DNA from: a virus
Virus record (IMG/VR): IMGVR_UViG_3300023443_000297
Coordinates: 1-56,230 of that record
Strand: one strand, 5' to 3'
DNA: 56,230 nucleotides
Positions 719-4,536 of this stretch are shown here, in pieces. A program made the translations under genes and the position numbers. The notes under the pieces were generated by a model that was not told where the DNA came from, made no database searches, and worked only from the letters and a program-made list of their open reading frames with translations. Numbering within the stretch: position 1 is the first letter of the stretch; every line of letters starts with the position of its first letter.

Positions 719-1039
719 TCATATGGTGTGGGTTAGCCAGTCCCAGATTCTTCTAAGGCCCTTCTGTTGTTTTTCTTGTTCCTTTTGTAGTTTCATCCTC
801 CAGAACAGGACATCGCGCATCAGTTCGAATTGCCGCAGTAAGTGGGTATTGCTTGGAGTCAGCCCTCTGTAATACTCTCCATCTTGGATAAATACCTCAC
901 CTCCACTGCTGCTGCAGTCCAGGATAGTGCGACCGGTGAAGTCGAACCCAGGCCTAGATCTCAGCCTGGCTATATAAACGTCTATTGATTCCTTTTCCTT
1001 TGCGAACCCTACTAGTGGCTCTTTCTCATACAATGTCAT
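719..1039 (-). CDS. Hypothetical protein (106 aa)
   Basis: No family recognised. The start overlaps the polymerase stop in a TAATG arrangement, which implies translational coupling to the polymerase gene. The C-terminal third (residues about 68-106) is strongly charged and helical, ending in a Trp-rich amphipathic segment (RRIWDWLTHTI). Such a coupled small protein could be a polymerase partner, but nothing in the sequence proves that. Confidence 0.7.
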   Translation of the reverse strand: MTLYEKEPLVGFAKEKESIDVYIARLRSRPGFDFTGRTILDCSSSGGEVFIQDGEYYRGLTPSNTHLLRQFELMRDVLFWRMKLQKEQEKQQKGLRRIWDWLTHTI

Positions 1040-4000
1040 TAGGTTAGGCTACCCCATCTCTCACCGGATTTCAGTTCCACCTTCAGCGGCACCGATAACT
1101 GCATTACGCTTTCCATTACTGGCTTTATCATCTGACCTAGAACCTCTATGTAATCACACTCTACCTCTAGAATAAGCTCATCGTGAACCTGAAGCAGGAA
1201 TCTAAACCACGGTAATTGCCCTGTGTCTCTGAGTTGGAATAGCCTATTGGTGGCGAGTTTAATAATGGCCTGTGCTCCAGATTGGATCGGCATGTTACCC
1301 GCTGCTCTCTCCCCATCACTCCTAATGCGGCGGATAGGGCAGAATAGCTCAGGCATGTACCGGCGGCGACCTACCATGTCTTGAACATACCCCGTGCGTT
1401 TGGCAAAATTGATATGGTGCTGAAGGAATTGCTTGATTTCTGGAAAGCGTTGGTCATATTCTACCAGAAGCCTAGCGCAATCATCAAGGGACCAGCCGTC
1501 AATGCCCTCCTCTATCAGGCCCTCATACAGACCAAGAGGGGTTATGCCGTAGATTATACTGAAGTTCATCCTCTTGGTGGGGTACCGGTATCTAGTCTGT
1601 TTAGCCTCTTCATATGGTATTCCAAACAGGATAGATGCGGTATAGGTGTGAATGTCCAGGTCTTCCCAGAATAACTGAATCAGGCGTTGGGATGCGGATG
1701 CGTGGGCCATTAGACGCATCTCTATTTGCGAGTTATGAGTATAGACACCACAAGTTAGGGCAAACAATGAGCTAGCATTGTCAATTTCTATATCCCATAC
1801 CGGCAGCGATCCTATAGCCTCAACAGAGACAACCTTATGGTTTAACCCGTTCTTACGCGCCTGGTCACTACACCCTATGGAGCAGAACTTCGCCTTCTTA
1901 GAGGGTGAGGCATAGAAGTCAGCTTCACAACAGAAGCAGACTAACATGGGGCCTTTTCGTTTGCCAAAGTTGGGATTATTCTCACCAACATAACTTCTGC
2001 GTTTGGATAGGGCTATCCTTAACCTTTCTAGTCGCAGGGTATGATCCTGACGCGCATAGGACTCTCGACCATCAATAGACATGTGCTCAAAATTGGGAAG
2101 GTACTCTAAGTTGTCTGGGGAGTTATTATGCTTATCTCCATCTTTGTGTTGAGTAGAGTACCCCACTGGTAAAGGACCATAAGCCCACCTAGCTACTTCG
2201 CGATGTTCATAGGTGTAATTGAAATACGATCCGGTATACAGAGTAGTATAGCCATTACCGGCATAGCTGCGCCGCAATGGCATTAGTCTATTACCAGGGG
2301 ATAACTCTGAGGCGTGTTTCAATACTCCTGTATTGAGAGGTACCCTATGGTTAGGAGTACAGGTGAACTGCTCACCGTTGCTTAATTGAACCCGAATACA
2401 CGCCCGCTCGCCAGAATAAACCTTAGCTTTAACCTCAGAGATCATCGGCCTATTGTCACGATCAACGCTGTAGATAGGATCTCCCGGCTCCAACAATTCA
2501 ATCGGCACTTCACCTAAGGGAGTATCCACCCCTGTTCCCTCAGCCAAACAGTAGTCAGGAGCAAGGAACAGATACCCAGGTGGGGCACAGAAGCCATCAC
2601 GGATGCGTCTGCCATCCTCTGACCTGACTGGCATAGCTTGTAGGTTAACCGGGTCAGATGTGGTGAGGCGACCTGTAGCTCCCCGGGTGGCGCGGATTTG
2701 ACACCGGACCCTAGGAATACCTGCTGAGTCCATAACAGCTACACGGGGGAGGACATCAGCGTAGGAGGTCTTGGCCTTGAGTATCTGCCGGTAGTTTAGG
2801 ATCTCCTGAACTAGAGGAATAACCTCATTGGTAGTGGAGTTGCGGATCTTCTTCAACTCTCTATCGTCAGTGGAGGGCAAACCCGATTCTGAGCGTTTGG
2901 TAATTGGGTGGTTTAGCTTACTGCTCCCGTACACCAGATCAGCTACCTGAACCGGGGAGTTGGGATTGAATGAGCCGTAGCCTCCAAGAATAGCACAGTC
3001 AGCAGCGGAAGTATTAAGGCGATCAGTAAACTCTGCGGATAGTTGATTAAGGTGAGGGGGATCTATAGGCATACCGACATCCATCATCTCATTGATAATA
3101 GGCAGCGTGGGAAGATCTATAGCATTGAGTACAAACCCAAGACCAGCCTCATCTATCATATGGAGTAGTTCATCACGGACCCTGATAGTGGCGTCAGCAT
3201 CTCTGCTTGAATAGTAAATAGTATCGGAGTAGGGTACTTGCTCTAGGCTGGCGTCCAGCATCAGGCCTATAACTGATTCTACTTCGGTTCGTTCTGCTGA
3301 GTTAATATCATGCCATCTGCGGTAAGCATCTGTTTCTGGTTTAGTTTCCACATCATCAAGTATCTTCCAGATTTTTCTACTGATATGATTAGGCTTCCTA
3401 TCGTGTGTGAGGATACTACCTGATTTGTTGTCCCATTTGGTCTCAGTTATGGGATCAGGCTCGGCCCAGAGTTCGCATTCCGCTGCCTGAAGATAGTCTA
3501 GAGCCTTACCCTGGCGGTACTGATGAACATAATCATCATAGGAATACATCTCCATCCCACACAGACGGAATGCCAGCTCCTTTAACCCCTGAGGTAACCC
3601 AAGCAGATAGGCTGCTACCATCGTGTCTATGAATCTGGGAATGCGAATGAATTGAGCATCGTAGAGGTAGTTGTGGACGGTTACTAAACTGGTATCAGGT
3701 ATGGCGGTTTGTGGATCTGGAATTAGATGGGCTGGGATAAACCAGGCTGTACCTGGTTCCATACTCACCTGAACTGACCAGAGCTTAGATCCGCCATCTG
3801 GCCCTGGAACAGTCTCAGTGTCCAGGGAGAACTCTGGCTGAGATAGCAAGGCAAGAGCGTGTTCGGTGCTGGTAACCTCTATGTAGTCAGGGTTGGGGTA
3901 GAGATCTGTCGGTACGAATGATAGGGGATCAGCGCCGTTGAGGATCTCCTTTAAGACTCGGAAATCATCGAAGACCATTCTCAGTTGCGGTGTAGTGTAA

Positions 4001-4536
4001 AGCCCTGCAGCAGGGTGATAGGTTGGAAATATTAGCGTGGGTGGAGCACCGTATTCCTCCTCAGCTGAATTACCGACGTACCGCCACTGTGGTATAGAAT
4101 GTGTGTGCTCTACGGTGAGGGTATCATCACCAAGGAGATAACGTATGGCTGGCTGACCCATTGCTACGATGATTTGAGGGCGAATTATATCTATTTCGAG
4201 TTGCAGCCATTTGTCAGCACAGTAGCGGGTGTCGGCTAGGGATGGTGTAGCATTGTTTCTGGGGCGGCATCGGACGCAATTGGTGATGTAGACTTCAGAT
4301 CGCAGGAGATTGAGATAGCTGAGAAGGTCATCCAGCATAATACCAGCAGCGCCGGTGAAGGGTATGCCATCCTCGTCTTCGTGCTCGCCGGGAGCCTCAC
4401 CAACGAAGAGAATGCGGGAGTTGATGGAGCCGATACCGGGTACAGGGCCAAGGCATGATTGGCGCAGATAGCAGTCAGTGCAGGATCGGACTGCTTGGTA
4501 GATGGGGAAGGTTGATGTTGAGGTTTGGGTTACCAT
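1039..4536 (-). CDS. Uracil-DNA glycosylase / 3'-5' exonuclease / family A DNA polymerase fusion, intein-containing (1165 aa)
   Basis: Replicative polymerase with four readable parts. Residues 1-200 are a family 4-type uracil-DNA glycosylase: GEAPGEHEDEDG at 46-57, likely 4Fe-4S cysteines C19, C22, C90 and C106, and the HP motif at H174. Residues about 215-460 are a DnaQ-like proofreading domain with D239/E241, N289-D293 and Y442xxxD446. Residues about 465-1165 are a PolA polymerase: motif A D661 continuing at S936 (DY/SQIEMRL), motif B R984-K988-F992-Y996-G997 and motif C QVHDE 1116-1120. An intein (663-935) interrupts motif A. The 5' nuclease domain of bacterial Pol I is absent. The gene heads an operon that reaches PurZ, dUTPase and ribonucleotide reductase, so it is a candidate DpoZ (2-aminoadenine-preferring polymerase); that preference is inferred, not visible. 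Phage SPO1 polymerase is, from memory, a precedent for a UDG-like fusion. Confidence 0.95.
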   Translation of the reverse strand: MVTQTSTSTFPIYQAVRSCTDCYLRQSCLGPVPGIGSINSRILFVGEAPGEHEDEDGIPFTGAAGIMLDDLLSYLNLLRSEVYITNCVRCRPRNNATPSLADTRYCADKWLQLEIDIIRPQIIVAMGQPAIRYLLGDDTLTVEHTHSIPQWRYVGNSAEEEYGAPPTLIFPTYHPAAGLYTTPQLRMVFDDFRVLKEILNGADPLSFVPTDLYPNPDYIEVTSTEHALALLSQPEFSLDTETVPGPDGGSKLWSVQVSMEPGTAWFIPAHLIPDPQTAIPDTSLVTVHNYLYDAQFIRIPRFIDTMVAAYLLGLPQGLKELAFRLCGMEMYSYDDYVHQYRQGKALDYLQAAECELWAEPDPITETKWDNKSGSILTHDRKPNHISRKIWKILDDVETKPETDAYRRWHDINSAERTEVESVIGLMLDASLEQVPYSDTIYYSSRDADATIRVRDELLHMIDEAGLGFVLNAIDLPTLPIINEMMDVGMPIDPPHLNQLSAEFTDRLNTSAADCAILGGYGSFNPNSPVQVADLVYGSSKLNHPITKRSESGLPSTDDRELKKIRNSTTNEVIPLVQEILNYRQILKAKTSYADVLPRVAVMDSAGIPRVRCQIRATRGATGRLTTSDPVNLQAMPVRSEDGRRIRDGFCAPPGYLFLAPDYCLAEGTGVDTPLGEVPIELLEPGDPIYSVDRDNRPMISEVKAKVYSGERACIRVQLSNGEQFTCTPNHRVPLNTGVLKHASELSPGNRLMPLRRSYAGNGYTTLYTGSYFNYTYEHREVARWAYGPLPVGYSTQHKDGDKHNNSPDNLEYLPNFEHMSIDGRESYARQDHTLRLERLRIALSKRRSYVGENNPNFGKRKGPMLVCFCCEADFYASPSKKAKFCSIGCSDQARKNGLNHKVVSVEAIGSLPVWDIEIDNASSLFALTCGVYTHNSQIEMRLMAHASASQRLIQLFWEDLDIHTYTASILFGIPYEEAKQTRYRYPTKRMNFSIIYGITPLGLYEGLIEEGIDGWSLDDCARLLVEYDQRFPEIKQFLQHHINFAKRTGYVQDMVGRRRYMPELFCPIRRIRSDGERAAGNMPIQSGAQAIIKLATNRLFQLRDTGQLPWFRFLLQVHDELILEVECDYIEVLGQMIKPVMESVMQLSVPLKVELKSGERWGSLT
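1732..2550 (-). other. Intein with HNH homing endonuclease domain inside polymerase motif A (273 aa)
   Basis: Host residues 663-935 are an intein. It begins with Cys663 (CLAEGT, block A), has a block B TxxH (T727-P-N-H730), block F (VWDIEIDNASSLFA) and ends VYTHN935 followed by Ser936 as the +1 nucleophile. Excision restores DY-SQIEMRL, the family A motif A. The middle carries an HNH-type endonuclease signature (HKDGDKHNNSPDNLEYL from H797) and a Cys cluster (CFCC, CSIGC at 867-889) typical of zinc-finger segments in such endonucleases. All splicing residues look intact. The endonuclease would target intein-free copies of the same polymerase site. Confidence 0.93.

Follow-up and report, generated by a model that had tools for sequence, protein, structure and literature searches.

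A polymerase gene on the minus strand of a 56,230-nucleotide viral contig (IMG/VR record IMGVR_UViG_3300023443_000297; this whole stretch is referred to here as the window) carries 273 extra residues in the middle of its catalytic motif A, which raises the question of what this insert is, whether it is mobile and what it means for the polymerase that contains it. The explanation favoured here, with high confidence, is a class 1 homing intein with an HNH endonuclease, one that occupies a set position within motif A of phage family A DNA polymerases. The direct results are its anatomy, its predicted fold, a family of inteins at the same site, empty alleles, a patchy distribution, and the exchange and loss of endonucleases.

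The polymerase gene and its insert

Translation of the open reading frame at 1039-4536 showed no internal stop codon across the full 1165 residues. Pfam and NCBIfam profiles matched, in order, a family 4 UDG (UDG profile 101.4 bits against a cut-off of 24.3; TIGR00758 137.4 bits against 125.3), a 3'-5' exonuclease-like domain and a family A DNA polymerase domain in two stretches (DNA_pol_A 292.6 bits against 34.3). By these matches, the product is a family A DNA polymerase fused to a family 4 UDG and an exonuclease-like domain. The same UDG-polymerase layout is present in most relatives. The features of the gene are as follows (all on the minus strand):

1039-4536, minus: polymerase open reading frame, 1165 aa, ATG to TAA, with the stop codon at 1039-1041
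2551-4536, minus: N-extein, residues 1-662, with the UDG (33-182), the exonuclease-like domain (225-330) and the polymerase as far as the motif A Asp-Tyr (Pfam, NCBIfam)
2551-2556, minus: motif A Asp661-Tyr662, adjoining the intein, placed by alignment to Taq 1taq_A
1732-2550, minus: intein, 273 aa, Cys1 to Asn273 (precursor residues 663-935), identified by exact junctions, open frame, predicted Hint fold and same-site relatives
2266-2550, minus: N-terminal splicing part, intein residues 1-95, with Cys1 and Thr65-x-x-His68, conserved in same-site HNH inteins
2080-2208, minus: HNH_3 endonuclease domain (Pfam PF13392), intein residues 115-157, with catalytic His135 and Asn147
2149-2151, minus: Gln134, directly before the catalytic His, unlike all relatives in its alignment column
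1957-2055, minus: linker helix and NUMOD3-like segment, intein residues 166-198, from a weak NUMOD3 match and conservation
1870-1938, minus: Cys cluster C205-C208-C223-C227, from the alignment of same-site HNH inteins
1732-1845, minus: C-terminal splicing part, intein residues 236-273, with His272-Asn273, from the same alignment
1042-1731, minus: C-extein, residues 936-1165, beginning SQIEMRL, the remainder of the polymerase domain, where the DNA_pol_A profile restarts at residue 936

The insert is flanked by Asp661-Tyr662 and by Ser936-Gln-Ile-Glu (SQIEMRL being residues 936-942). A first-pass annotation of the sequence had described a 273-residue HNH intein from Cys663 to Asn935, ahead of Ser936, at 1732-2550 and splitting motif A between DY and SQIEMRL; every coordinate and residue number of that description is exact, and both the flanking residues and the HNH_3 match agree with it. 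Ser936, the first residue of the C-extein, aligns with position 612 of the full-length Taq chain (1taq_A), which places the insert directly after the motif A Asp-Tyr. The C-extein matched 65 PDB polymerase sequences at E values up to 1e-10, and the host protein minus the insert is continuous, the DNA_pol_A match lying in two stretches around the intein.

The intein contains a complete set of splicing residues, namely Cys1, Thr65-x-x-His68, His272-Asn273 and Ser936 as Ser+1. Alignment of the eight HNH inteins found at this site showed Cys1, His68 and Asn273 in all eight, Thr65 in seven and His272 in three. A model was built with AlphaFold2 from the window's intein and four same-site inteins (mean pLDDT 80.2, low at residues 157-168, 183-188 and 193-196), and the predicted structure is a Hint fold that superposes on the splicing domain of the Mtu RecA intein (2imz_A) with a Z score of 21.0 and an rmsd of 1.9 over 137 aligned residues, and on many other solved inteins with Z scores of 15 to 21. 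Generic intein profiles scored just under their curated cut-offs (Intein_splicing 32.8 against 35.8 bits, Hint_2 25.7 against 28.4, TIGR01445 24.2 against 24.5), which is likely a lack of profile sensitivity. Seven residues from the end of the intein lies Cys267 (window 1748-1752), present also in L152 and L287 and replaced by Asn, Ser or Asp in the other five aligned inteins; it is a possible candidate for a redox partner.

In the proposed mechanism, one 1165-residue precursor would be translated from the polymerase gene, and the Hint domain would excise itself by Cys1, Asn273 and Ser+1 chemistry, joining Asp-Tyr to Ser-Gln-Ile-Glu and restoring motif A. The unspliced precursor would have no polymerase activity; from general knowledge of polymerases this is very likely, because the insert adjoins the metal-binding catalytic Asp of motif A. 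The HNH module, together with the NUMOD3-like segment and the Cys cluster, would cut intein-free polymerase alleles of co-infecting phages, and repair of the cut allele would copy the intein in. We infer all three of splicing, precursor inactivity and DNA cleavage by the window's copy.

Empty and occupied alleles at the motif A junction

In order to sample the junction in related genes, viral contigs were scanned with C-extein alignments, and the 159 loci examined, minus 28 duplicates and 1 unreadable locus, left 130 distinct, readable relatives; the window's C-extein alone as a query gave no match in the viral contigs. The junction is empty, with the polymerase continuous across it, in 125 of these relatives and occupied in five (L056, L058, L152, L172 and L194). 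Intein-free alleles in related phages, which the first-pass annotation had named as a check on its reading, are therefore the common state, and the window's nearest relatives are among them. Scans based on the intein and on the junction added L208, L269, L279, L283 (with an identical copy, L284, in a second contig), L285 and L287, so that 12 distinct polymerase genes in viral contigs, the window's and 11 others, have an intein at this junction. The junction scan requires an Asn before SQIE, which biases it to occupied genes, and it is left out of occupancy rates.

The window's intein alone as a query matched 36 loci in viral contigs, mostly over the HNH part, and 2 weak loci came up when genome contigs were scanned using the alignment of HNH inteins. 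No intein more than 51% identical to that of the window was found in the viral-contig scans, and consequently no near-identical empty partner is known.

An HNH module is present in eight of the 12 inteins (the window, L152, L058, L172, L194, L269, L287 and L208, the last having no HNH_3 match and being assigned by alignment). The inteins of L279 and L283 instead match LAGLIDADG_3 (E values of 1.4e-10 and 1.1e-18, respectively), and that of L056 has a weak LAGLIDADG_3 match only (E value of 0.033). L285 has a 143-residue mini-intein without an endonuclease at the same junction; over the shared part it is 56% identical to the 279-residue HNH intein of L287, and the exteins of the two genes are 57% identical. 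A single junction is thus found in empty, HNH, LAGLIDADG and mini-intein states. An intein allele is thereby defined at the catalytic motif best known in family A polymerases. All stages of the homing cycle are represented at one codon junction (no intein, an HNH intein, a LAGLIDADG intein and an intein lacking an endonuclease), and the series provides a natural test set for the loss or exchange of an endonuclease while splicing is kept. It also offers a tight splicing reporter, since polymerase activity should appear only once motif A has been rejoined, and it exposes an annotation risk, such genes being easily taken for broken polymerases or free-standing HNH genes.

The window's nearest relatives (L047/L129, L048/L130 and L131) have their polymerase gene in two open reading frames, UDG-exonuclease and polymerase, split near the equivalent of window residue 471-478 with approximately 80 to 600 bases between them. 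No Rfam intron match was found in L129, L130, L131 or L152.

The endonuclease module and the history of the insert

The first-pass annotation had also noted an HNH core and a Cys cluster, and both are borne out: the HNH_3 match is over its cut-off (E value of 3e-10, 40.0 bits against 24.8), and C205, C207, C208, C223 and C227 are all present. C205, C208 and C223 are found in all eight same-site HNH inteins and C227 in seven, and the C205-C208-C223-C227 cluster probably binds zinc. The NUMOD3 match in the window is weak (12.4 bits against 20.4), and the linker and NUMOD3-like segment is nevertheless the best-conserved part of the eight inteins, with a mean pairwise identity of 51% against 35% for the HNH domain, 39% for the Cys region, and 32% and 35% for the two splicing parts. 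The nuclease part being conserved as well as the splicing part, the nucleases of this intein family are probably under selection.

The catalytic His135 and Asn147 columns are invariant in 66 distinct HNH relatives, a non-random sample picked from the fetched loci by profile at an E value of 1e-4. In the column directly before the catalytic His the same sample has His in 32, Asn in 19, Asp in 14 and Gln in one, the window. The corresponding residue of I-HmuI is an Asp that serves as a metal ligand. The window's own endonuclease may therefore be weakened by Gln134.

The distribution of the intein was examined on a tree of 130 polymerase rows, eight of them occupied; these include L208 and L269, which were found through the intein, so that the unbiased occupancy rate is the five of 130 given above. 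Occupancy required 8 changes, compared with a mean of 7.8 for shuffled labels (500 of 500 shuffles were as low), on a quick tree supported by SH-aLRT only and with L208 as a long branch. One-off clustering of occupancy is rejected by this result, the labels being as scattered as when shuffled. The five rows nearest to the window by tree path (L129, L131, L130, L139 and L143) are all empty, and the window and L287 are 41% identical in their inteins and 27% in their exteins. Scattered occupancy, empty nearest relatives and the higher intein than extein identity with L287 point to movement of the intein. Around the junction, the DNA of ten empty relatives matches that of the window at 11 to 20 of 24 bases.

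Other comparisons speak for stability. Intein and extein identities correlate among the eight HNH inteins (r of 0.68; 42 of 40,320 permutations as high) and among seven of them (r of 0.75; 33 of 5,040 permutations as high), a correlation that favours long residence over frequent transfer. The window's intein has the codon usage of its phage: with the other genes as reference it scores 0.311, where those genes average 0.322 and 38 of 70 pieces reach or exceed its value. A recent foreign origin, as judged by codon usage, was accordingly rejected. The picture these alignments suggest is one of repeated gain and loss, with long residence in some lineages.

These observations bear on whether the window's copy still homes. 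An intein that remains competent for splicing and has lost homing, descending vertically with an HNH domain weakened by Gln at a putative metal-ligand position and moving towards a mini-intein of the kind found in L285, is a possibility to be taken seriously, although a clearly less probable one than an intact homing intein. It would account for a Gln134 unique among the 66 relatives, for the phage-typical codon usage and for the correlated identities, and an endonuclease-less intein does exist at the same site. However, the window's intein keeps both catalytic residues (His and Asn) as well as its Cys cluster and an unbroken frame, and Gln may act as Asn does in 19 relatives. The mobility proposed in the first-pass annotation consequently stands for the family, through its empty nearest relatives, patchy distribution, varied endonuclease types and endonuclease-less derivative, and is weakened for the window's own copy by Gln134, at a position where the other 65 of the 66 have His, Asn or Asp.

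It is improbable that regulated splicing, responding for example to redox state, zinc or temperature, gates phage replication. The position of the insert beside the catalytic Asp implies that splicing would have to come before activity, and the intein contains additional cysteines, among them C267 close to its C-terminal junction, which L152 and L287 also have; however, the absence of an intein here from 125 of 130 relatives argues that there is no conserved need for a switch. The earlier suggestion that replication could be conditional on splicing therefore finds no support in its regulated sense. The sequence comes from one metagenomic record, but an assembly artefact or a dead insertion breaking the polymerase is hardly credible given the open 1165-codon frame, the full set of splicing residues and the related inteins at the same codon junction in independent contigs, and chance or misassembly is ruled out by these inteins together with the predicted Hint fold. 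A group I intron as the HNH-bearing insert was also rejected, as no Rfam match was found in the window at the gathering score and the insert and both exteins form one open frame.

Known polymerase inteins and genes with several inteins

The window's intein has counterparts in described phage polymerases. The DNA polymerase intein of Rhodobacter phage RcKickapoo (OP009274.1, L042) also carries HNH_3 and also sits in a phage family A polymerase that has a UDG-like domain upstream; over intein residues 1-158 it is 37.7% identical to the window's. Its insertion point is different, namely the TGR motif that precedes motif A, and the alignment shows no matching Cys cluster. The P45 DNA polymerase of bacteriophage APSE-2 also contains an intein in a phage family A polymerase, called as an intein here from the translation, but its site just precedes the conserved Gln region that follows motif B, and its motif A is empty.

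The inteins of archaeal family B polymerases mostly carry LAGLIDADG endonucleases. They resemble the present case in occupying a replicative polymerase at active-site positions, and differ in polymerase family; PMC549080 reports as many as three inteins in these enzymes, placed at conserved positions of the active site, and counts bacteriophage DNA polymerase I as an intein host. A table in PMC5874633 lists phage or bacterial PolA as a host as well. The group I intron of Bacillus phage SPO1 gene 31, with I-HmuI, brings an HNH_3-type endonuclease near the active site of a UDG-like/PolA gene, but is removed at the RNA level and lies between Asn675 and Leu676 in Klenow numbering (PMC2814812). The SPO1 gp34.33 helicase (L277:32382-35318) has an annotated 275-residue intein, and SPO1 thus has both a helicase intein and a polymerase intron. 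The dCTP deaminase intein of Aphanizomenon phage CL131 is a phage HNH_3 intein in a different host protein, 29.7% identical over residues 17-163, and self-excises in E. coli according to PMC6293099. Mycobacteriophage terminase (TerL) inteins, also in a different host protein, are similarly concentrated at functional motifs, and are spliced and cut intein-free alleles (PMC5050341).

These sources already record inteins both in phage PolA and at active-site motifs, and no first report is claimed. The literature searched, mostly partial texts and journals without subscription, did not yield a described case of a family A polymerase with its motif A interrupted by an intein. What may be new is the motif A insertion allele and the heavy colonisation of such genes, with up to three inteins per gene.

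The more interesting part is that one gene can be interrupted by two or three inteins, each at its own catalytic motif. The 1773-residue polymerase frame of L194 (1389-6707; IMGVR_UViG_3300037461_000585) has three, one after TGRL, one at motif A (HNH) and one after the conserved PIQ. L283 (1830-6710, identical in L284), a polymerase without UDG, also has three, at its TGR-like motif, at motif A (with LAGLIDADG) and immediately ahead of TPIQG. Two are present in L201 (2481-6710), at the TGRL and PIQ sites with motif A empty, and two in L285 (3252-6131), the endonuclease-less intein of motif A together with a second that splits motif B between NFGL and SY, placed by comparison with the continuous motif B of L287. 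It is conceivable, if improbable, that such stacked inteins (up to three, among the TGR motif, motif A, motif B and the conserved Gln region) time phage replication, and that the window's copy, with its altered nuclease, is kept for timing and not for homing. Were this so, the catalytic core of phage family A polymerases would be a general intein target from which all inteins have to be removed before any DNA is made.

Elsewhere in the window, a 733-residue open reading frame at 35953-38154 matches portal protein over the greater part of its sequence, with head morphogenesis families matched at the C-terminal end, and by these matches appears to be a portal-MuF-like fusion.
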